A stretch of DNA of 64,000 nt from an uncultured Mollicutes bacterium (GTDB taxonomy: Bacteria > Bacillota_I > Bacilli_A > Acholeplasmatales > JAEDCM01), in the NCBI GenBank assembly GCA_947166335.1, contig CAMVDS010000003.1, forward strand, positions 1 through 64,000, given 5' to 3'. Positions 2,142-46,900 of this stretch are shown piece by piece (position 1 is the first letter of the stretch; each line of letters starts with the position of its first letter). A model generated the notes under the pieces. It was given only the letters and a program-made list of their open reading frames with translations, ran no database searches and had not been told where the DNA came from. The position numbers and the translations under genes were made by a program.

Positions 2142-2610
2142 GTAGTTTATGAAAGTATTAAGAAAATATTAGAAGTTATTGTTTATTTTTTTAAGTCTTT
2201 TTTATGATTCTAAGTGTTATAAGATAAGAATCGTGAGAAAGGCTTATTTTATTAGGGTTTGAAAGAGATAAACTATTTATGATACTGAAATTAAAAGATT
2301 TTTTATTAAGGGAGAGAAATAAGATTTATATTGATGGAAGTGGAGATGAACGATGAGAGTTACGATTGGAAAAAATTATTATAAGGGTGATTTATTAGAC
2401 AGTGTGTGGATGGACTAGCATCCTGGTCCTCAGCAGCGGTAAGCCTGGGATCCGCTAAAAATACCCCGTGGATCACGCTAAAATCCTTTAAAATAAGCAC
2501 TTTTAACTTTTTTTATAGAAAAACTGTATTTATTGTTTTGTGTTATATAATGGCATTGTAAACAAGCGGTTCATCGCAAAAACCACTTGAATATAAAAGC
2601 ACATTGATAA
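2142..2610 (+). other. Leader region of the RNA unit
   Basis: No solid gene is present. A 21-codon frame at 2353-2418 (starting MRVTIGKNYY, GGAG 7 bases upstream) could be a leader peptide. Bases 2435-2456 form an AGCGG/CCGCT hairpin. A near-direct repeat GGATC(A)CGCTAAAA occurs at 2448-2460 and 2470-2483. A TATAAT hexamer at 2546-2551 is a plausible -10 box for the next unit, but its -35 is poor. Confidence 0.35.
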
Positions 2611-2690
2611 TTGAATATAGCAAACTGGATATTATAACAACTCAATTATTTTATAATATCGGTTTATATCTCAAAAAGGAGGGATTTATT

Positions 2691-3347
2691 ATGAGTAAAA
2701 ATATCCAGTTTAATGCAACAACAGGCAAGGCTTTCCGTACTAAGCTCGAAAAATACTATAATGCTATGCACTCAATTGCTGACCTTATTAATGAGTGTAA
2801 CGATACCGTGTCACGCTATAGTGGTATTATTGACACTAATAAAGATCTTATAGTAAAAATCGAGTCTGGTGAAAAGGTACGCTATACGAAGGCTCAGCTC
2901 GAAACTGAGATTAAGTCCGCCGAGCAGAAAATAGCTGATGCTCGTACTGACCGTGACGAGGCTAAGTCTAAGTTTGACAAGGCTATAGCTGAGGCTCAGT
3001 GTTTCTATACTGAAGCTATGCACAAGGGTGCAGAGACTGTTGTCAAGACTTCTGGCACTGACCTTACCGAGTGGCACTCTGCCCTTGCTGATATGCTCAA
3101 AAAGAACGGTTTTGCTGACGCTACATCTGACAATGTTTTACGGTTTGACTATCTCGTTGGAGTGCGTACTAATTCAGCTAAAAACACATACAAGGCTAAC
3201 TCGCTCGTTGGTATAGGCTCAGCTAAGTCTTGTGCAAAAACGTTCTTGTGCGCTTTTTCCGAGTATATGGTATCTGAGAAAATCATCAGCCCTTTCAAGC
3301 ACAAGTATGTACCCGTGTCTATGCGTAAAGATAAAAACAAAAAGTGA
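2691..3347 (+). CDS. Unknown 218-aa protein embedded in the structured-RNA unit
   Basis: A strong AAAAAGGAGGG site precedes ATG 2691; the frame is open from 2604 but that start has no ribosome site. The protein begins MSKNIQFNATTGKAF. Residues about 70-115 form a charged coiled coil, and the C-terminus is Lys-rich (RKDKNKK). No family is recognised. The gene is less AT-rich than its neighbours, resembling the non-coding RNA that follows, and it lies between bases 2611-2630 and 3372-3391, which pair as a 20-bp helix. It may be an RNA-binding partner of that RNA; this is inference from position. Confidence 0.85.
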   Translation: MSKNIQFNATTGKAFRTKLEKYYNAMHSIADLINECNDTVSRYSGIIDTNKDLIVKIESGEKVRYTKAQLETEIKSAEQKIADARTDRDEAKSKFDKAIAEAQCFYTEAMHKGAETVVKTSGTDLTEWHSALADMLKKNGFADATSDNVLRFDYLVGVRTNSAKNTYKANSLVGIGSAKSCAKTFLCAFSEYMVSEKIISPFKHKYVPVSMRKDKNKK

Positions 3348-4811
3348 TACTACGCTTTGTAACCCGTTGGCATCCAGTTTGCTATATTTAAAACTCGACT
3401 ATGCGAGTATAAACAGGCTTTAGGCATAGTGCGTGTGTACCCTTTTTGGGTACACGGTAGTAGTACAACTTTATATTGATGTTATGTAAGTGTCATTACG
3501 TGATGTCACCGCAATAGGCGGAATGTATCACACTATGGCAAGCCCAACAGGGTGAAGTCTACCTGTTCAGTCGGGGCAAGTTTCATACTGGGGCATTTGT
3601 GGACGCATAACGTTATTCTTGCTTAATGACTTTTTGAGTTGTCTACTAGGTGTACTTTGACAAATATATATGTGCGTGGGTTAGACGTGTATGCACTGGG
3701 TGTAGTATGCATACTCGAAAAGTACCATAACCGCCGAGAGGAGGGTGAAGTGTGACGATGCCTCATCATGGGTAAAGTCTGGAGTGTTTCGTGTCCTCAA
3801 ACACGACCTCTAAGCACAGCACAACGTTAGTAGTCTGTCTATATGTATCTTTACGTGTAGTCTACGTAGGGGTATTGGGTGAAAACGACCAACTACCAGT
3901 GTTGGATTATAGCAGGTATGCGTGAATATTATGTCATGTCGAGCTAAAGGTTGGATTAGAAGTAAGCATCTAATGACTGACTGTATATGGTTATACGTGT
4001 AAAAACGTATAAGGATTGCAGTGTGTCTTGTGACACGAGAAGAACCTCCAGTGTAATAATGCGTATATTCGCTTGAAGTCCGTAAATCCGCAAAGGTATG
4101 GCAGAGGATACGCTTAACGTGTATGGGTGAGATATGTGTTCCAGGCACATTTCAATATATGTTCCCGACATCAGCGAATAAAGCGAGTTGGGTAGGATGA
4201 ATAAACGCATACAACATGTTAAACTGGTTAGAAGTAATACGTTACTTCTATGCTCGATCCGCAAGGGTCTATGGCTTGAATTTTACACAGCCGTGTGTAA
4301 ATACTTGTTCTTAGTTAGAATGAGTCTATCTCCTACGGTTAGGAAGGCAGTGTCAATAAGTCCTTTAAAATGAGCAACGACAGCTATATCCATGAGCAGT
4401 GGGTAAACTTTGAGCATACATAAAATCCTTAGAGTTTTTGTGTACAAAGAATCCAACGGCGAAGATCCGTTCTTATAACCCTATCTATCATGGGGGATAA
4501 GTAATAGTCTATTTAAGACTAAAACTCGAATGACACTACGTAGCATCTGTCTATGTTACGTGTTACCCAACACCGAGTATAAAGTCAATAAAAGGCGTGT
4601 AAGCATTTGTGTTTACAAAAGTGGGATAATAATGATAGAATGACGTAATAGGTCATGGTGGCACATAGACAATATAAGTACGTTAACTCCGCATGTAGGG
4701 TGATAGTATGCCCTTAGTGTCTCTCTATGAGGTGCTTGTGAGTGTACTTATATTGTTTAGTATGTGGCTTAACCACATCTTAGTGTATAGGTTCGATTCC
4801 TATGCCTATTA
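3348..4811 (+). ncRNA. Giant structured non-coding RNA (about 1.46 kb)
   Basis: About 1.5 kb has no gene with a ribosome site but is dense in perfect hairpins: 3393-3397/3404-3408, 3435-3442/3448-3455, 3509-3512/3518-3521, 3546-3551/3562-3567, 3689-3695/3708-3714, 3789-3794/3801-3806, 3852-3856/3864-3868, 3889-3893/3901-3905, 3991-3998/4005-4012, 4023-4027/4032-4036, 4134-4138/4146-4150, 4229-4237/4242-4250 (9 bp), 4283-4289/4294-4300, 4505-4510/4516-4521. Its 5' part pairs back across the preceding gene (2611-2630 with 3372-3391). The 3' end is a tRNA-like domain. It recalls GOLLD and ROOL, known large phage RNAs often next to tRNAs, but it is longer than either and I cannot confirm membership. 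Ends are approximate. Confidence 0.75.
4647..4811 (+). ncRNA. tRNA-like 3' domain of the giant RNA
   Basis: Bases 4647-4653 (AATAGGT) pair with 4804-4810 (GCCTATT) as a 7-bp acceptor-like stem. Next to it 4787-4791/4799-4803 form a perfect T-arm with loop TTCGATT. Between them a perfect 13-bp helix joins 4669-4681 to 4744-4756, flanked by CACATA/TATGTG, and a small ATGTG/CACAT hairpin replaces the anticodon arm with a loop lacking U33. No CCA is encoded. It has no G3-U70 pair, so it is not a tmRNA of the usual kind. Confidence 0.6.
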
Positions 4812-4857
4812 TTCCTTTTTATAAGGGAAATCTAAGAAAGGAAAAGGGAAAATAAAT

Positions 4858-5055
4858 ATGTTATATGATCTAACTCCTACACAAGGTCTATGTGAATTAC
4901 TCCGTATAGCCCGTGACTATCAGCAGATTCTAGGTATTGACGCTACGACTACGGCTACTGAAGATCTTATAACACACGAGTTATGGTGTGATTATGAGGA
5001 TTTATTGTCTGCAATCTGGATTATAACATATCAGCTTTTTGATGAAATGAGGTGA
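4858..5055 (+). CDS. Unknown 65-aa protein
   Basis: First gene after the giant RNA, about 45 bases past its tRNA-like end, with an AGGAAAAGGG ribosome site. The product is Leu-rich, helical and mildly acidic, with two Trp and no motif. It probably shares the RNA unit's transcript, since no promoter separates them and the first good terminator is at 5368. Confidence 0.7.
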   Translation: MLYDLTPTQGLCELLRIARDYQQILGIDATTTATEDLITHELWCDYEDLLSAIWIITYQLFDEMR

Positions 5056-5060
5056 TTATT

Positions 5061-5252
5061 ATGATTACTATGCAACAAACTTCAATCTCTGGTAAACTCA
5101 TCACGTTTGAATATGTAGATGATGTACCATTTCGTAACGATGAGCTACGACTTGTAAAAGGTTTCCGTGTCACTTATGATGGAAATACAATAATAGAATG
5201 TCAAGATTCATATTATGCAAAACAAGTGTATAAAAACTTGAAATATTTATAA
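5061..5252 (+). CDS. Unknown 63-aa protein
   Basis: GAGGTG six bases upstream favours ATG 5061 over a GTG at 5052. The small protein alternates hydrophobic and polar residues, suggesting a beta sheet, and ends in a basic helix (KQVYKNLKYL). It lies 5 bases after the preceding gene and is the last one before the terminator. Confidence 0.7.
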   Translation: MITMQQTSISGKLITFEYVDDVPFRNDELRLVKGFRVTYDGNTIIECQDSYYAKQVYKNLKYL

Positions 5253-5367
5253 TCACGTCACTGCCAGAACTTGTGGCTACGTGTCAAAGCGAAGTGACGT
5301 TTTCCATCAGTAGGTGACTTCATCCCTATATGATGCCACGTTTTAAGACTCACACGGACTGGGAAGA

Positions 5368-5394
5368 GTGTTTGCAAAGGCAAGCACTTTTTTT
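5368..5394 (+). terminator. Rho-independent terminator of the RNA unit
   Basis: GTGTTTGC (5368-5375) pairs with GCAAGCAC (5380-5387, one G-U) over an AAAG loop, followed by seven T. An extra hairpin ACGTCAC/GTGACGT spans 5255-5300 upstream. Together they close the transcript carrying the giant RNA and the two small genes. Confidence 0.8.
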
Positions 5395-5479
5395 GGTTGC
5401 AAGTCTTTTATCGTGGGTAAGGGTAACTGATGTAAGCGAAAACTAATTGACAAAAGTATTATGTATGGAGGTAAGCGAA

Positions 5480-5644
5480 ATGGCTTGTTTAATTAAGGAT
5501 GCGCTTACAGGTGAGATTCTTGGGTATAAGAACTTCACCAAAGCACAGAGAGAACAGATAAACGCAGAAGGGAATGTAAAAGTTACTCCCTTTTACGACA
5601 CAGAAACTTGCAAACGTGTAATGGAAAACCTTGAAAGGAGATAA
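5480..5644 (+). CDS. Unknown 54-aa protein
   Basis: GGAGG at 5466-5470 fixes ATG 5480 rather than the TTG further upstream. The sequence begins MACLIKDALTGEILG; the -TGE- pattern is like a short beta hairpin. Two Cys occur, at residues 3 and 45. First gene of the long small-gene array after the terminator. Confidence 0.65.
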   Translation: MACLIKDALTGEILGYKNFTKAQREQINAEGNVKVTPFYDTETCKRVMENLERR

Positions 5645-7813: not shown

Positions 7814-8263
7814 ATGAAAAAAGAATATAAGTTGGCTAAAACAAAAGGTAAGTTTGCGAAACTGAATAATCTTACACCCGCTGAAAGCAAATACTATTCT
7901 GGAAATGATTTGTATTACGACTTCTCACTACTGGATAATATAAAGTTCATTGATGATGATAGGGAAATCATAACAAAAGATTTTATGGAACATCATGCAG
8001 TAGCATGGTTTGAACAGCCTTTGCCTACTATTTATCCATATGGAAAATGGATTGATTATACAGGACAGATAAGAACAGCACCACATAGAGTATATAAGGC
8101 AGATGGAAAACGGATGTGTGTGGTTATTGAAATAACTGGAATAAAAATTGAACGTAGAACGAGAAAAGATGTTTGGTCTGAGTATGACATAGTTGAAGCT
8201 GTATATGAAGCTAAGAATGGAAACTATGAATATGATATAGAGTTAAAGGAGGAAATTGCATGA
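7814..8263 (+). CDS. Unknown 149-aa protein
   Basis: GGAGG lies 7 bases upstream. Residues 1-20 are basic (KKEYKLAKTKGKFAKL); the rest is mixed and aromatic-rich, with an acidic C-terminus. No catalytic motif seen. Its stop overlaps the next start. Confidence 0.78.
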   Translation: MKKEYKLAKTKGKFAKLNNLTPAESKYYSGNDLYYDFSLLDNIKFIDDDREIITKDFMEHHAVAWFEQPLPTIYPYGKWIDYTGQIRTAPHRVYKADGKRMCVVIEITGIKIERRTRKDVWSEYDIVEAVYEAKNGNYEYDIELKEEIA

Positions 8264-8310
8264 AACATATTTTTAAACGCAGATGGAAAGCAATATTCAA
8301 GGGATTATAG
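8260..8310 (+). CDS. Possible 16-aa basic peptide
   Basis: AAAGGAGGAAATTGC directly precedes ATG 8260, and the frame gives MKHIFKRRWKAIFKGL, an amphipathic cationic helix. The strong ribosome site argues for translation; the size prevents any family test. Confidence 0.4.
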   Translation: MKHIFKRRWKAIFKGL

Positions 8311-8328
8311 TAAAAGGAGGTAAACGAA

Positions 8329-8580
8329 ATGTATACAGTATTCAGAAAGTGTTGGGGATTGGATCAAGATGTATGTTGGGATGAAGGATATGACTATTTT
8401 GAAAGCGAAAAAGAAGCTCAGAAGTTCGCAAGGGAGTTGGAATACTCCTATACAGATGAATCAGGATGTCCTCCTGAGCATCCTTGGTATAGAAGCAAGT
8501 TCTATGTACAAGAAATAAGTGAAGAGTACATTCGATCAAAGCGAAACACATATGCGAACTGGATGGCAAATATGATGTAG
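8329..8580 (+). CDS. Unknown 83-aa acidic protein
   Basis: AAAGGAGGTAAACGAA upstream. Contains a pattern common in small phage proteins, a beta strand then FESEKEAQKFARELE, a helix that typically follows a two-strand hairpin. Two Cys are near the N-terminus and one at residue 45. Confidence 0.72.
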   Translation: MYTVFRKCWGLDQDVCWDEGYDYFESEKEAQKFARELEYSYTDESGCPPEHPWYRSKFYVQEISEEYIRSKRNTYANWMANMM

Positions 8581-8600
8581 AAACAAAGGGGGTAAACGAA

Positions 8601-8780
8601 ATGGAAATTGAAGTATTGGAAGAATTTATTGGTATTGATCCTGATTTTTTTGAAAAGGAAATGACGCCTTGTGATTTTCCAGACGAAAATGGACAGTACC
8701 ATTGTCCTTATGAAGATACATACAGCGGTTATGAAAGCGAAATGTGCCGTAACTGTTGTGGATTGGGGGTAGATGAATGA
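8601..8780 (+). CDS. Unknown 59-aa Cys-containing protein
   Basis: GGGGGTAAACGAA upstream of ATG 8601. Five Cys: one at 23, one at 35 and a CRNCC cluster near residues 49-53, spaced as for one zinc site. Acidic, otherwise featureless. The ATGA overlap with the next gene suggests coupled translation. Confidence 0.65.
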   Translation: MEIEVLEEFIGIDPDFFEKEMTPCDFPDENGQYHCPYEDTYSGYESEMCRNCCGLGVDE

Positions 8781-9479: not shown

Positions 9480-10418
9480 ATGAATAAGGAACTGGAGCAG
9501 AAGATAAGGGACATACTTGAAAAGGAAACTTGCATTGACACTAGAAATGGAAACGAAATAGGTTATGAAATCTCCTTGGATTATGACGAAGAGTTAAGTG
9601 AAACAGAGCTTGCAAAGATATCACGGTCTGATGATCCAGAAGAAACCTTTTATGATATTGAAGGGAATTGGGTAACAAACGCTGAAGATTACTACTATCC
9701 TGAGTTAATGGAAACAATCAGAAAAAACATGGAAGATGAAGAGTTTGACGAAAACGAAGATGATATTATAGAGTGGGTAAGAGATAATGTTTACTGGTAT
9801 CTTCCAGACAGTTTTGGAAAGCAAACAGTAGATGTTGTAATTGCTTTAGATACTGGTGATGCAAACACAGACTTTACGGAAAGTAACATATTGAACTGGT
9901 ATGGGAGAGATGGTGGCTATAATCCAAAGGGAACTATACCAGAAAAATCACCTATACGCTTTATAGCACAATCACAAGGTAAGCTTGAAGAAGTAGAAAA
10001 GGCAATAAGTCTTGAGCTTGATCCTTATGTTGAAAAATATAACGGAGATATGTTTAGTAAATTTACACGTTCTATTGTTCAAGAATTAGAAAACGGAAGT
10101 AGTCATATGCTTACCTATGTATTCTTACTTCAGATGGATTTACAAGATTTCATACAGTTAAGAGAAAAGATAAAAACTAAAGAGGGAACTATCACAATAG
10201 ACAAGCGAACTGAAAGTGGTCTGTATGATATATGGAATGGTGGTGGTTCAGTTCTGGAAGTTGAGCTTGAAAAGGATATAGAGATACCAATGAGCATGAT
10301 ATTTGATGCATGGATTGAGTGCAGAGGTTGTAAGGCAAACGGCAGAGGATATGATGTAAAAGAAGTGTATAGTATAGGTAGTAGTTGTTTCAGAAATGGT
10401 AGTGTTAAAGTAGCATAG
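9480..10418 (+). CDS. Unknown 312-aa acidic protein
   Basis: The largest gene of this stretch, with GGAGG eight bases upstream. The first 115 residues are very acidic (EDEEFDENEDD and similar) and Tyr/Trp-rich. The middle contains a helix-rich part around residues 160-240, and the end has Cys 281, 284 and 302. Strong acidity can mimic DNA, but no known anti-restriction motif is visible. Confidence 0.8.
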   Translation: MNKELEQKIRDILEKETCIDTRNGNEIGYEISLDYDEELSETELAKISRSDDPEETFYDIEGNWVTNAEDYYYPELMETIRKNMEDEEFDENEDDIIEWVRDNVYWYLPDSFGKQTVDVVIALDTGDANTDFTESNILNWYGRDGGYNPKGTIPEKSPIRFIAQSQGKLEEVEKAISLELDPYVEKYNGDMFSKFTRSIVQELENGSSHMLTYVFLLQMDLQDFIQLREKIKTKEGTITIDKRTESGLYDIWNGGGSVLEVELEKDIEIPMSMIFDAWIECRGCKANGRGYDVKEVYSIGSSCFRNGSVKVA

Positions 10419-27849: not shown

Positions 27850-27980
27850 GTTATTATAACTATCACGCAAAGGCAAAACATCTAATAGCAACAGGTCATT
27901 TAGTTAAGATGGAAATAGGTCAACTACCCCGACTTACGACTAATGTCTTAGAAGTCGGAGCTTGTAAAAGCTCTGATTGA
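27846..27980 (+). pseudogene. Small phage gene cut short by the IscB element
   Basis: An ATG overlapping the integrase stop opens MSYYNYHAKAKHLIATGHLV, the N-terminus of a short phage family (typically Y-HAKAK-LI--G-L followed by PALVL-F---PMPIR). After about 24 residues the frame runs into the HEARO RNA and ends at a TGA in it. The expected C-terminal part is missing, so the gene was interrupted by insertion. Confidence 0.65.
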
Positions 27981-28200
27981 CTACTTTAAGTTCTTAGAGA
28001 ACTACGTTATTTGTGTTATCACACCTACGGATGGTTCCCAAGTCTGTAGCAACTGTGGAGGCTCTGTAAACAGTTCTGATGGGTAGGAACAGTCAACCTC
28101 AAATGACCGATTACGGCAAGCACTTATAACATTGAGGAAGGGAAACAAACTTTCATAAGAAAGGGATGCCACCTGAGGGTAGGCATCAAAGGTAATAGTT
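27911..28200 (+). ncRNA. HEARO / omega RNA of IscB
   Basis: The 290 bases before iscB carry the expected hairpins: CCGACTT/AAGTCGG (27929-27935/27952-27958), AGCTT/AAGCT next to it, and the conserved stretch CAACCTCAAATGACCGATTA, then GGAAGGGAAACAAAC. The end GGATGCC...GGCATC abuts the iscB ATG, as in known HEARO RNAs. IscB uses this RNA as guide scaffold, with the guide being the roughly 16 bases just upstream of its 5' end, here flanking phage DNA near 27890-27911. Confidence 0.85.
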
Positions 28201-29484
28201 ATGAAACAGGGGAATAGAATATTTGTACTCAATATGCGAGGTGAACCACTAATGCCTTGCAGTCAAAGAAAAGCTCGTATTCTATTAAAAGAGAATAAAG
28301 CTGTAATCAATAAATATAATCCGTTTACCATTCAGCTAACTTATGCTACAGGGGAAACAAAACAGGATTGTCATATAGGAGTAGATACAGGCGCTAAGCA
28401 TGTTGGTATCGCAATTACATCAGAAGATAAGGTTCTTTACAAGGCAGAAATAGAATTAAGACAGGATATTAGTTCTAACCTTGATTCTAAACGCATTTAT
28501 CGTAGAAGTCGCAGGAATCGTAAATGCAGGTATCGTAAGCCACGTTTTCTTAATCGTAAACGTACAGATAAATGGCTTCCACCAAGTCTACAGAATAGAA
28601 TTAACCATACTTTTACATGGATAGATAAGTTCACTGCATTAGTTCCAATCCCCGTATTGCATATAGAAGTTGGTAAATTCGATACGGTAAAAATGATTAA
28701 TCCTGACATTAACGGTGTGGATTATCAGCATGGTCAGACATACGGTTTCTTTGATGAAAGGTACTTCGTTTTTGCAAGGGATAATTACACTTGTCAGGTA
28801 TGCGGTAAATCTAAAAATAAGATTTTGCGAACGCATCATATCATATACCGTGGTAATGGTGGTACAGATAGAGTAGATAATCTCATCACAGTATGCACTG
28901 ATTGTCATACATCAGCAAACCATAAGAAAGGCGGTATTCTTTATAAATGGCAGGAAGAACATAAAAAAGTAAAACAGTACAAAGAACCGCCATTTATGAA
29001 TGCGTTGCGTAAAAAGATTTTTATGAAATACTCCAATGCGGTAATTACTTATGGCTCAGAGACTACACCGAAACGTAAGAATATTGGTTTAGAGAAAACT
29101 CATTACAATGACGCAATTGTAATAAGTGGTATTAAAACCATAAAAGAAAATCCTAATGAGTGGTTATTAATAAGACAATTTCGCAAGAAAAAGCGTTCAT
29201 TACATGAAGCTACAGCTCGTAAAGGGCGTAAAGAACCTAATCACACACAGAAGCGCAATAGTAAAAATACGCCATATTATAAAGGATTTTGGCTTAATGA
29301 TAAGGTTTCCGTATTGGGACAGATTGGCTACATAACAGGATTCACTTCTGGTGGTGCTTATGTCAAAAATTCAGATGACGAATATATCACGCTATCAGGT
29401 AAATCTTATAAGCAGGTTTCTATTGCTAATTTGAGACTGGTTTCTCATAACAATAATTGGCAATACATAAATAATTCCGTGTAA
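28201..29484 (+). CDS. iscB: IscB RNA-guided nuclease (427 aa)
   Basis: PLMP domain at the start (MRGEPLMPC), RuvC-I GVDTGAKHVGIAI (Asp near residue 62), Arg-rich bridge helix RRSRRNRKCRYRKPRF, RuvC-II HIEVGKFD, HNH domain YTCQVCGKSKN, then RTHHIIYRGNGGTDRVDNL, and RuvC-III THYNDAIVI. All catalytic residues I can check are present, and the length is normal for IscB, the ancestor group of Cas9. It starts directly after its omega RNA. In host elements IscB cuts DNA that matches the guide, helping the element to persist. Confidence 0.93.
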   Translation: MKQGNRIFVLNMRGEPLMPCSQRKARILLKENKAVINKYNPFTIQLTYATGETKQDCHIGVDTGAKHVGIAITSEDKVLYKAEIELRQDISSNLDSKRIYRRSRRNRKCRYRKPRFLNRKRTDKWLPPSLQNRINHTFTWIDKFTALVPIPVLHIEVGKFDTVKMINPDINGVDYQHGQTYGFFDERYFVFARDNYTCQVCGKSKNKILRTHHIIYRGNGGTDRVDNLITVCTDCHTSANHKKGGILYKWQEEHKKVKQYKEPPFMNALRKKIFMKYSNAVITYGSETTPKRKNIGLEKTHYNDAIVISGIKTIKENPNEWLLIRQFRKKKRSLHEATARKGRKEPNHTQKRNSKNTPYYKGFWLNDKVSVLGQIGYITGFTSGGAYVKNSDDEYITLSGKSYKQVSIANLRLVSHNNNWQYINNSV

Positions 29485-42282: not shown

Positions 42283-43998
42283 ATAGTATCTCCTTTCGTG
42301 CTAGTAATATAGCATGGATTTGATAGGTTACATTGGTACTTTTGAGGAGAGCTTCGGGTTAGTCAGCAGTTACCGAAAACTTAGAAATTGTTGGAAAAAC
42401 TCTAATAATGTTGTGGACTTTAGAGAGCATGATTGCTAGGATAGAGTTTTACATGAACAGCTAATAGATAAACTTAAGGTCTATCTTACGTGGGGATTAG
42501 ATACTATAGAGCATTTTGATGAAAAGGTCTGATTATGCTTATTGGAAAGAAAGTCTGTTTACAACCGAATAAAGAACAGGAACAGGATTTCTTTAAGTTT
42601 GCAGGTACGAGTCGTTTTGCCTGGAATCAGAGTAAGGATTTTTATGAAACTCTGTTTAAGGATAAAGGCGAGTATGCAAAATTATCAGACCTTATGCACC
42701 ATTTACAAGACATGAAACATAACAATCCTGATTATGCTTGGTTAAACACTATTCCTGAAGCAATTACCAAACAGGCTATGAAAGATTTACTTAAAGCATA
42801 TAAGGGATTTTATAAGAAACGTAAGTCTGATTATGATGCAAAAAATCCTGATAAGTATAAGCCTAAATTCAAGAAACGAGGCAAATGTATAGAATCGTTC
42901 TATCAAAGGACTGATAATATACATAAGACTGATGATAGTCACATTAAAATAACTGGCATCAAAAAGCCTGTTAAATGTAGTCAGTTAAAAGACATTGATT
43001 TACCAAAGAATATACAGAATCCTCGTATTACATTTGATGGTAAGTATTGGTATTTGTCTTATTCTTATGAGATTGCAGAAGAAGATATTGTTGATTATGA
43101 AAATGATGTTCTCGGTATTGACCTCGGAATAAAAGATTTAGCAATATTTTCTAATGGTGAACATCATAGGAATATCAACAAAGATAAAGAGATTAAGCGT
43201 CTTGTCAAAAGATTGAAACGACTGCAAAGACAATTATCTCGTAAATATGAGGATAATGTATCATATGATAGCGAAGGTAAGAAAATATATCATAAAACTA
43301 ACAATATAAAGAAACTTGAACAACAGATAAGACTAATCCACAGACGGATTGTAAATATACGAAAGGCATATATGTACGAAGTAATAAAGTCAGCGATGAA
43401 AACCAAATCAAAGACTATTGTACTGGAAGATTTGAATATTAAAGGTATGTTGCAAAATCCGAAACTGGCAAAGTCTATACAGGAAGAAAATCTGTCAGAG
43501 TTCCGTAGGATATTAACTTATAAATGTGAGAAGAATGGTACGGAACTGATAATAACAGACAGATGGTATCCTTCCAGTAAAATGTGTTCTTGTTGCGGTA
43601 ATATAAAGCATAACTTGAAATTGTCAGACAGAATATATAAATGTGATGCCTGTGGTTTGGTAATGGACAGGGATGAAAACGCAGCGAGGAATTTAGAGAA
43701 ATATCCAAAGATAAAGTACAAAGCGAAAATAGCATAGATAAGTAATCAGTAGGTGTCTGTTACGCCGAATTAACGCTCTGGGAGAGTTACACCAATCTAA
43801 TTAGCTTATCTCGGTAAGTGAAAAGAGACTCGAAGAAAGGAGAAGTGACAAAGTTAGTAAGTTTCCAACTTTTTCTGACTTTTCACAAACGGTCGTACTG
43901 GCTCTCCTCATGAGTGCCGTAATATTAAGTGGAACTTTAAATGTAGTATAAAAATAATGTAAATATAGTGAAAATATTAAAGAAAAGGAGATAAAGAA
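42283..43998 (+). mobile_element. TnpB-carrying segment between ssb-like and recA-like genes
   Basis: About 250 bases before and 260 after the TnpB gene have no other gene. They carry hairpins (TGCTA/T AGCA near 42308-42322, CTCTAA/TTAGAG near 42400-42425). No TnpA gene is present. The 3' part presumably encodes the guide (omega/re) RNA that TnpB uses. I cannot place the ends exactly. Confidence 0.5.
42535..43737 (+). CDS. tnpB: TnpB RNA-guided nuclease (400 aa)
   Basis: Ends of the catalytic set are all visible: RuvC-I GIDLGIKDLAIF (Asp about 200), RuvC-II LEDLNIKGM (Glu about 302), zinc finger CSCCGN, then YKCDACG, and RuvC-III DRDENAARNL. N-terminal helical domain MLIGKKVCLQPNKEQE is normal. 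TnpB, the ancestor of Cas12, cuts DNA next to a short TAM with RNA from its own 3' end. Weak ribosome site (AAAGG) eight bases upstream. Active-looking. Confidence 0.92.
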   Translation: MLIGKKVCLQPNKEQEQDFFKFAGTSRFAWNQSKDFYETLFKDKGEYAKLSDLMHHLQDMKHNNPDYAWLNTIPEAITKQAMKDLLKAYKGFYKKRKSDYDAKNPDKYKPKFKKRGKCIESFYQRTDNIHKTDDSHIKITGIKKPVKCSQLKDIDLPKNIQNPRITFDGKYWYLSYSYEIAEEDIVDYENDVLGIDLGIKDLAIFSNGEHHRNINKDKEIKRLVKRLKRLQRQLSRKYEDNVSYDSEGKKIYHKTNNIKKLEQQIRLIHRRIVNIRKAYMYEVIKSAMKTKSKTIVLEDLNIKGMLQNPKLAKSIQEENLSEFRRILTYKCEKNGTELIITDRWYPSSKMCSCCGNIKHNLKLSDRIYKCDACGLVMDRDENAARNLEKYPKIKYKAKIA

Positions 43999-45113: not shown

Positions 45114-45370
45114 ATATAGCTGTTATTTATCAGCTAAATAACTACCTTTGCTTAGGTAGTATTGTAACTATAAGCTTTTTGACACACACACTGTACTTTG
45201 AAAATTGAATAATGATTTTATGAATATAAATATATGTAGACAAGCATTAAAAGTCAGTAAGAAAATAGAGCCTTAATCTGGAACAAGTGGGTACGTACCA
45301 CATTAAAAAGTAACTGAAATCCAGACAGGATGCGTGTGATTGAAACTGCACACCATATGTTTATATATTA
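45114..45370 (+). other. Gene-free stretch between tRNA-like RNAs
   Basis: Contains hairpins ACTACCT/AGGTAGT (45142-45161) and GTGG/CCAC around a GTAC palindrome (45288-45302). AATCCAG at 45318-45324 can pair exactly with the 3' acceptor strand of the Lys-like tRNA that follows. No open frame with a ribosome site is present. Part may be the left end of the TnpB element. Confidence 0.4.
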
Positions 45371-45444
45371 GATTCAGTAACTCAATAGGAAGAGTATTTA
45401 ACTTTTAAGTTAAAGAGTTGTGGGTTCGATTCCCATCTGGATTT
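45371..45444 (+). tRNA. tRNA-Lys(TTT)-like, eight-base anticodon loop
   Basis: Acceptor GATTCAG/CTGGATT (45371-45377/45437-45443, two G-U), D arm ACTC/GAGT, anticodon stem TTTAA/TTAAA (45397-45401/45410-45414), T arm GTGGG/CCCAT with TTCGATT. The anticodon loop CTTTTAAG has eight bases instead of seven, as in +1 frameshift suppressors. Alternatively, C and G pair and leave six. Discriminator T, no CCA encoded. Confidence 0.65.
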
Positions 45445-45478
45445 ATTTATAAGAATATATAAAGGTGGTAATTAATAT

Positions 45479-46633
45479 ATGTTTATAAGTTATAAAACTG
45501 AAATAGATCCAACAGAAGAGCAAAAATATAAAATAAATCAGACTATAGGTACTTGTAGATATATCTATAACTTTTATATAGCCACACAAAAAGAACGATA
45601 TGAAAATGGCGAAAAGTTTCAATCAGTTATAGATTTTAGTAAATGGTTAAACAACGAATATTTACCATATCACACAGAGTATTCTTGGATAAAAGAAGTC
45701 AGCAGTAAATCTGTAAAACAAAGTATAAACAATGCTTATGGAGCTTTTCTGAAGTTCTTTAAGAAACAAAGCAAGTTTCCAAGATTTAAGAAAAAGGGAA
45801 AGTCTGATGTAAAGATGTATTTTGTAAAAACAGATGCCAATTCAACCATATGGTGTGAACGACATAGAATAAAGATACCTACTCTTGGATGGGTTAGACT
45901 TAAAGAAAAAGGTTATATTCCTACTACAAAAAGTGGTTTAGTAATTAAAAGTGGAACAGTATCAGAAAAAGCAGGACGATATTATGTATCTGTTTTAATA
46001 GAAGTTTCAAATGCAAGTGTAAAACAGCCATCTAATCCAGGAATAGGTATTGACCTGGGAATTAAAGATTTAGCGATCTGTAGTGATGGAAATACTTACA
46101 GTAATATCAATAAAACGCAGGAAGTTAAGCGTTTAGAAAAGAAGCTAAAAAGAGAACAACGTAGTTTATCAAGAATGTATGAAAATAAAAAGAAAAGAGA
46201 GTCTACTCAAAAAAATATACAAAAACAAAAGAGAAAGATTCAGAAACTTTATCACAGACTTGATAACATCAGAACAGATTATATCAATAAAACAATAGCT
46301 GAGATAGTGAAAACCAAGCCATCTTATATAGCTATTGAAGATTTGAATGTATCTGGAATGATGAAAAACAGGCTTCTTTCCAAAGCAGTTGCTCAACAAA
46401 AATTATATGAATTTAGAACTAAAATAACTAATAAATGCCATCAGAATAATATTGAGTTGCGTATTATTAACAGATGGTTTCCCAGTTCTAAAATTTGTAA
46501 CTGTTGCGGTAATATCAAGAAAAACTTAAAACTATCTGATCGTATTTATAAGTGTGAGTGCGGTTATGAAGAAGACAGAGATTTCAATGCAAGTCTTAAT
46601 TTAAGAGATAGTAATGAATATCAGATAGCATAA
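45479..46633 (+). CDS. tnpB: TnpB RNA-guided nuclease, second copy (384 aa)
   Basis: RuvC-I GIDLGIKDLAIC, RuvC-II IEDLNVSGM, zinc finger CNCCGN then CECGYE, RuvC-III DRDFNASLNL: all key residues present. It differs widely from the first TnpB, especially in the N-terminal half (MFISYKTEIDPTEEQKYKI), so it is a separate arrival. AAAGGTGGT upstream. Located between a tRNA-Lys-like gene and a tRNA-Thr gene; no TnpA. Confidence 0.92.
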   Translation: MFISYKTEIDPTEEQKYKINQTIGTCRYIYNFYIATQKERYENGEKFQSVIDFSKWLNNEYLPYHTEYSWIKEVSSKSVKQSINNAYGAFLKFFKKQSKFPRFKKKGKSDVKMYFVKTDANSTIWCERHRIKIPTLGWVRLKEKGYIPTTKSGLVIKSGTVSEKAGRYYVSVLIEVSNASVKQPSNPGIGIDLGIKDLAICSDGNTYSNINKTQEVKRLEKKLKREQRSLSRMYENKKKRESTQKNIQKQKRKIQKLYHRLDNIRTDYINKTIAEIVKTKPSYIAIEDLNVSGMMKNRLLSKAVAQQKLYEFRTKITNKCHQNNIELRIINRWFPSSKICNCCGNIKKNLKLSDRIYKCECGYEEDRDFNASLNLRDSNEYQIA

Positions 46634-46900
46634 CTGATAATATATACTACCGATGGCTAATCGGAAAGTTACGCCTATGGACTATACAAGAACTTGTGAG
46701 TAGTTGAAATATAATGAAAGCATATAGGATGAAGTAGGAATTTTCTCAATGTGAATATGTTTTATCATATTTTGAGTAGCAGAGACACCTTTGGTATGGT
46801 TTATAAAGTAGTTCTTATAATAAGAATAGTACCTAAACTTTCTATGCAACCTATAGCTGAAGTGATTGATGGACATGCAATCTGAGTAGTTTTTATAACA
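46634..46900 (+). other. Right flank of the second TnpB, structured
   Basis: No gene is visible. The first 60 bases (CCGATGGCTAATCGG hairpin, CTATGG, ACAAGAACTTGTGAG) probably belong to the TnpB guide RNA. Further on, CTCAA...AATATG/CATATT...TTGAG (46753-46784) is a two-step hairpin, and TATAGG (46721-46726) can pair with CCTATA (46850-46855). Confidence 0.4.

Follow-up and report, generated by a model that had tools for sequence, protein, structure and literature searches.

The window, i.e., the whole analyzed stretch of 64,000 nucleotides of DNA, harbors a cassette in which a pistol ribozyme probably (at a rough probability of 0.6) frees a giant phage RNA of ~1,355 nt that likely works together with its co-encoded protein. 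Since a cassette of this layout is also present in the rumen bacterium Eubacterium ruminantium, the two loci likely represent an undescribed class of RNA working with a protein of its own. The features of the cassette and of the sequence behind it are as follows:

2611–2630, + strand: 5′ strand of the closing helix, pairing with 3372–3391
2691–3347, + strand: 218-aa gene (ORF), encoding a basic protein predicted to be all-helical
3372–3391, + strand: 3′ strand of the closing helix, pairing with 2611–2630
3393–3462, + strand: pistol ribozyme match (RF02679) with 65.7 bits, the gathering score being 34.5
3458–4812, + strand: predicted giant non-coding RNA of ~1,355 nt with inferred ends, holding no gene-sized frame; its body is homologous to and collinear with that of the relative
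4484–4491, + strand: 5′ strand of an 8-bp helix with 4632–4639, predicted as a pseudoknot or long-range pairing
4618–4632, + strand: AAAGTGGGATAATAA, the longest block identical in the RNA body of the relative (contig L006, 9784–9798)
4632–4639, + strand: 3′ strand of the predicted pseudoknot, pairing with 4484–4491 behind the most conserved block
4645–4812, + strand: tRNA-like 3′ domain, read from the sequence (acceptor-like stem, long arm, variable-type hairpin, T arm)
4858–5055, + strand: small 65-aa ORF 3′ of the RNA, without a family in the family searches
5061–5252, + strand: small ORF (63 aa; 66 aa if the GTG at 5052 is the start), likewise without a family
5361–5394, + strand: probable intrinsic terminator (15-bp fold with a U run, z −4.1)

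The window likely represents a phage genome, with a DnaB-type helicase, a Toprim domain, a phage integrase and an MrpR-type domain among the encoded proteins. Within the block at 2611–4812, the 5′ strand of the helix is followed by a ribosome site, the 218-aa gene, the 3′ strand of the helix, the pistol match, a gene-free stretch of ~1,355 nt and the acceptor/T-arm-like domain. The block had been described as less AT-rich in an initial annotation made from the sequence, and its GC content indeed amounts to 42% in the gene and 41% in the RNA, compared with 25% before the block and 35% behind it. The same annotation had presented the block as one two-kilobase unit and had missed the ribozyme at 3393–3462. 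Because the pistol match sits between gene and RNA, the idea of a single closed RNA unit comprising both is probably wrong.

The helix formed by 2611–2630 and 3372–3391 comprises 17 contiguous Watson–Crick pairs, or 20 if G–U pairs are counted, which agrees with the 20-bp long-range helix proposed initially. Among 1000 shuffles of the leader, the best helix reached 13 bp for the window and 10 bp for the E. ruminantium locus, compared with 17 bp in each of the actual sequences. Compared with the window, the 17 Watson–Crick pairs of the E. ruminantium helix include ten that are the same and seven that are changed on both sides, while none is broken. The helix had been believed to close the whole block; it encloses the gene only and stops 1 nt 5′ of the pistol match. 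With the pistol lying between gene and RNA and the cut predicted at G3457/U3458, the closing helix would therefore be part of the mRNA half. Regarding a common leader of the two loci, the upstream similarity was no better than that of shuffled sequences (65 of 500 as high), and no enrichment of the motif GCACATT...AATAT was found. In addition, a perfect 12-bp complement between the 5′ strand of the helix and the gene start (2622–2633 × 2700–2711) would hide the ribosome site and represents a possible switch; it is present in the window, and none was spotted by eye in L006.

The pistol match is complete and is nearly equaled in score by its counterpart in E. ruminantium (L006, 8684–8759; 65.6 bits, gathering score 34.5). 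P1 and P3 of the window ribozyme are paired in the covariance-model alignment, and the pistol pseudoknot, as read from the sequence, consists of CTATGC × GCATAG in the window and CAGAGC × GCTCTG in L006. From the 2-nt P3/P2 junction of the model alignment, the cut is predicted between G3457 and U3458. Two short database matches also concern the ribozyme, namely a 43-nt match of 86% on a Cellulosimicrobium phage, which falls on window positions 3392–3434 and does not mark a relative, and a 42-nt match on a Paenibacillus plasmid, where a pistol lies ahead of ordinary small genes.

The region behind the ribozyme appears to be non-coding, as had been proposed initially. The longest forward stop-free stretch within 3463–4784 measures 63 codons, and the ORF listing for both strands yields chance frames of 61–112 aa. 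No gene-sized frame was found there. A protein frame common to the RNA bodies of the two loci was searched for, and the best candidate (E 0.012 over 13 residues) was not convincing; a protein hidden behind the pistol was accordingly rejected on the basis of the 63-codon limit and this cross-locus value.

The relative was obtained as viral contig L006 (IMG/VR) and as NZ_FUXA01000016.1 of E. ruminantium ATCC 17233 (L008), and four further hits (L007, L009, L010 and L060) represent the same contig. It features the same order of helix, gene, pistol, ~1.17 kb of sequence and T arm, and comparisons of cassette DNA were made between these two loci. Its gene (7986–8657) encodes a protein that is 24% identical over the alignment and 27% in the best segment. 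Its pistol is followed by ~1,171 nt up to the point where the acceptor-like stem ends, and the 1,200 nt 3′ of the ribozyme contain no forward frame reaching 50 aa. The two genomes are not close relatives overall, since only 4 out of 72 length-picked open frames of the E. ruminantium contig have a counterpart among the window frames at E 1e-4, namely the cassette protein, an IscB-type protein and two small ones. The recurrence of the complete cassette, with a homologous, collinear RNA body and without a match to GOLLD, ROOL or OLE, supports the earlier proposal of a new large RNA linked with its own gene.

When ribozyme and T arm were removed, the two RNA bodies still aligned with a local score of 68, compared with a mean of 35 and a maximum of 49 for 200 dinucleotide shuffles, none of which was as good. 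Exact blocks occur in common order at AACTTTATA (window 3467, L006 8767), TGTGACACGAG (4029 and 9291), GCGAATAAAGC (4174 and 9544), TCGAATGAC (4526 and 9705) and AAAGTGGGATAATAA (4618 and 9784); the full list of 12 words common to both RNAs contains several that are out of order. As no better match than E 0.012 exists between translated frames of one body and those of the other, the similarity most likely resides at the RNA level.

Within the 3′ part, the predicted pseudoknot between 4484–4491, which we placed in a hairpin loop, and 4632–4639 is fully paired in both loci, with three two-sided changes and one one-sided change. A stem of like size and covariation was observed in 21 of 2000 column shuffles, a value that applies to a pseudoknot chosen after the fact. 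Counts of covarying stems in the 3′ part were 9 versus 6.5 in shuffles (41 of 200 as high), 12 versus 7.9 (24 of 200) and 5 versus 2.0 (12 of 200). Over the full length, where the alignment is off register at the pistol, the counts were 92 versus 83.6 (11 of 60), 66 versus 47.7 (2 of 60) and 33 versus 23.4 (7 of 60). In this comparison of two sequences, covarying stems therefore outnumber those in shuffles only moderately, which speaks against a strong claim of structure. The description of the region as hairpin-dense does not translate into unusual stability, because the folding energy was no stronger than that of coding controls: full-length z values were −4.2 for the window RNA and −3.9 for the relative, compared with −9.0 and −4.1 for the controls, and mean z values over 150-nt windows were −1.0 and −0.7 for the RNAs, while the genes that follow them gave −1.2 and −1.4.

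The tRNA-like end described initially was confirmed in part. A perfect T arm (4787–4803, ATAGG-TTCGATT-CCTAT, with TTCGATT as the 7-nt loop of the TTCRANY type) is identical in E. ruminantium and adjoins a possible acceptor-like stem of 9 bp (4645–4653 × 4804–4812); however, neither ARAGORN nor the Rfam tRNA model called a tRNA at the 3′ end, and the four tRNAs of the window lie elsewhere. ARAGORN likewise called no tmRNA in the window or L006. The acceptor-like stems of window and relative (9 and 10 bp, respectively) differ in their letters yet pair, each beside a 5-bp T arm. The domain is devoid of a D arm, and its acceptor-like stem would enclose a long arm plus a hairpin of the variable type. 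For the window segment 4648–4811, which began three bases into the stem, z was −3.8 and the minimum-energy fold lacked the acceptor stem, whereas the 3′ domain of the relative folds with its acceptor stem by itself (z −3.7).

Behind the cassette, both loci continue with a series of small frames directed rightward. The terminator noted initially near 5368 was retained as probable, since 5361–5394 folds as one; nevertheless, it lies beyond two small ORFs rather than directly at the RNA and was absent from the terminator pattern scan. In L006, a segment of ~150 nt past the T arm (9927–10080) is bounded by AGACAAGATG and CATCTTGTCT, with AATTTTT as its last bases; judged by eye, it may represent a further structured end.

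The 218-aa gene had been recognized correctly, and a putative ribosome site, AAGGAGGG, was located upstream of it at 2676–2683. Its product has a pI of 9.16, and the AlphaFold2 model reached a mean pLDDT of 93.8. Successive searches expanded the family from 7 to 65 proteins, the window's own included, and a last search added two more, P0066 and P0067; 60 of the 65 members have a pI above 8.5, and a single member is labeled with an organism, namely SAMN05660484_02224 of Eubacterium ruminantium. The family matches no known family. For the 218-aa protein, no curated family scored above its cut-off, and Pfam matches remained below theirs. PHROGs families each matched at most 2 of the 65 members, NCBIfam and PADLOC returned weak coiled-coil matches only, and the PDB sequence search gave a best E of 0.024. 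Foldseek found nothing at E 0.001 in the PDB or among viral models, and the structures nearest to the model were generic helical hairpins, with no RNA-binding fold among them. An OLE-associated protein was not found among the matches of the family search. Joint action of protein and RNA is plausible, given the basic family and the same gene order in both loci, and the protein likely binds the giant RNA. The initial suggestion of a packaging role gained no support.

To place the cassette among other pistol sites, a motif search of viral contigs was evaluated, which delivered 28 stretches including the E. ruminantium contig; two of them (L025 and L029) were dropped for want of an Rfam pistol match. 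The remaining 25 stretches together with the Paenibacillus plasmid site provided 28 control pistols, which do not count as 28 independent cases because they stem from one motif and include near-duplicates. The longest Watson–Crick helix that the 45 nt 5′ of the ribozyme can form with the sequence preceding them (at most 1,055 nt) measured 6–11 bp at these sites, compared with 17 bp in both the window and E. ruminantium. Forward frames of at least 50 aa covered a fraction of 0.15 (window) and 0.00 (E. ruminantium) of the 1,200 nt 3′ of the pistol (shorter where the sequence ends), but at least 0.63 at 24 of the 28 other sites. The other four sites are L017 (147 nt of sequence), L031 (491 nt), L033 and L019. 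L033 (12900–13435, minus strand) features a pistol followed by ~480 gene-poor nt with hairpins and is perhaps a second pistol-released phage RNA. In L019 (10140–11245, minus strand), the pistol lies directly 5′ of three tRNAs and ~770 gene-poor nt, a stretch in which no additional Rfam family reached its gathering score. A sequence profile built on the window and E. ruminantium RNAs found no match in L033 or L019. In view of these two sites, gene-poor sequence behind a pistol is not unique, whereas the present RNA and its helix are distinctive for the cassette among the sequences compared. Furthermore, the pistol of L023 (383–495) adjoins a type-P5 twister ribozyme, and in L026 (1443–2260) and L013 (11046–11517), two pistols flank an open frame.

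Searches for additional loci returned the E. ruminantium contig alone, both in viral contigs (by protein and by conserved RNA block) and in the scanned genome contigs. Neither phages, queried by DNA or protein, nor plasmids contained a relative, and whole-genome samples of 397, 391, 61, 392 and 398 genomes, each including that of E. ruminantium, held no other full-length match. Five partial protein matches (E 6.4e-5 to 3.4e-4; 63–109 residues in the coiled-coil part) on loci of 1.9–3.3 kb without Rfam match were set aside. The T-arm pattern, applied to viral contigs, retrieved L001–L005, which share one sequence context, enterobacterial as judged by CyaR matches in L002 and L004; they were rejected as having the motif alone in common with the giant RNA. 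A wider two-part pattern retrieved 16 stretches, one being the known contig and the other 15 mostly ordinary tRNA ends; these were rejected with local scores of 24–38 to the two RNAs, compared with 68 for the true pair as measured on slightly shorter stretches. Searches of the open-access PMC library listed no description of the locus.

Outside the cassette, a HEARO RNA (27919–28150, 124.5 bits) lies directly 5′ of an ORF at 28201–29484, so that the pair spans 27919–29484 of the window; L006 has the same pairing (HEARO at 5160–5374, ORF at 3854–5137), and both ORFs are presumably of the IscB type. RAGATH-18 RNA matches were detected at 43776–43844 and 46674–46740, each directly 3′ of an ORF that we take to be TnpB-like (42535–43737 and 45479–46633, respectively). 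As both matches directly follow such ORFs, RAGATH-18 may represent the guide RNA of the TnpB-like transposases in the window. A tRNA called by ARAGORN with undefined anticodon (tRNA-???; 45370–45445) adjoins one of the TnpB-like ORFs.

In the explanation that we favor, in which transcription, cleavage, RNA ends, protein binding and timing are inferred, a single transcript would start upstream of 2611. The pistol would cut it once, yielding a protein message along with a giant RNA whose end is tRNA-like. The closing helix likely holds both ends of the message in contact, separates the ribozyme from upstream sequence and shields the message after the cut. The freed RNA would adopt a compact fold that includes the predicted pseudoknot close to the 3′ end. 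Its acceptor/T-arm domain would serve as a signal for 3′ processing or protection and as a docking point. Since the protein likely binds the freed RNA, the product would be a phage-made ribonucleoprotein, comparable to GOLLD and ROOL particles but having its own protein. A bolder version, which we regard as doubtful, envisages a new phage ribonucleoprotein in which the helical protein grips the tRNA-shaped head of the RNA, and the RNA would scaffold a body or compartment in infected rumen bacteria. A parallel for such a grip is provided by the arm of seryl-tRNA synthetase, which grips the tRNA elbow.

Several other explanations have to be weighed against this scenario. The stretch behind the ribozyme could be a structured leader or spacer regulating small downstream genes, so that the pistol would merely trim a polycistronic message, as it does at other phage loci, and no giant RNA would be set free. 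This would be in line with the two small ORFs and the terminator behind the RNA, with the mostly open sequence directly behind 24 of the 28 other pistols and with the unremarkable folding energy. However, RNA homology over 1.1–1.3 kb and a T-arm end in both loci go far beyond the needs of a leader, and blastp of the open frames lists no common small gene directly behind the cassette, which makes this possibility an unlikely one. We consider it very improbable that the RNA is tmRNA-like or an aminoacylated tRNA mimic acting on the ribosome. The T arm beside an acceptor-like stem without a D arm, as seen in both loci, does recall such molecules, but ARAGORN calls neither a tRNA nor a tmRNA there in either locus, the stems measure 9–10 bp instead of 7 bp, and neither contains the G3–U70 pair that is the rule for tmRNA.

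It is also conceivable, albeit quite unlikely, that gene and RNA are neighbors without a joint function, the helix and the pistol processing the message only while the RNA acts alone in the manner of GOLLD and ROOL. The cages built by GOLLD and ROOL consist of RNA only, and ROOL has no known protein partner (PMC12286853); moreover, no RNA-binding fold was found for the protein. Nevertheless, the order of gene, pistol and RNA is kept in both of the two readable loci despite a protein identity of only 24–27% and changes in 7 of the 17 helix pairs, and the protein family is basic. Both points speak against independent action of the RNA.

The shapes of giant phage RNAs, among them GOLLD and ROOL, have been solved, but their jobs are unknown (PMC12286853). 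If our interpretation is true, a giant RNA accompanied by one dedicated protein and equipped with an integral cutting element would offer a direct handle on such molecules, because its ends are predictable, a candidate partner is named and a strain-collection isolate, E. ruminantium ATCC 17233, carries the locus. Pistol ribozymes would likewise gain a clear biological role.

Models of GOLLD, ROOL and OLE, a comparison already proposed in the initial annotation, and of group II introns found no match within 2300–5500 at E up to 5. The Rfam search of this region with the same limit returned, besides pistol, three families, all far below their gathering scores. T-large RNAs, i.e., circularly permuted group II introns, are large bacterial RNAs of ~900 nt on average (PMC8637638); in contrast, the cassette is without a group II intron match, and the general domain-5 pattern is absent from the window. 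OLE, a large bacterial RNA, works with dedicated Oap proteins (PMC12286853), and the present RNA differs in having no match to its model. Pistol RNAs are often found near phage genes (PMC4604425); at 24 of the 28 other sites studied here, mostly open sequence follows them, and a long closing helix occurs at none. HEARO RNA and its HNH (IscB-type) gene likewise unite RNA and gene in one mobile unit, although no HEARO match was obtained at the cassette. GOLLD and ROOL are not known to have a preceding gene of this sort. Both are large RNAs of phages and prophages, of unknown function and often located near tRNAs, GOLLD often exceeding 800 nt (PMC12286853). They are nearest in kind to the present RNA, which matches neither model and is distinguished from both by the ribozyme at its 5′ end, the T-arm domain at its 3′ end and the gene ahead of it.
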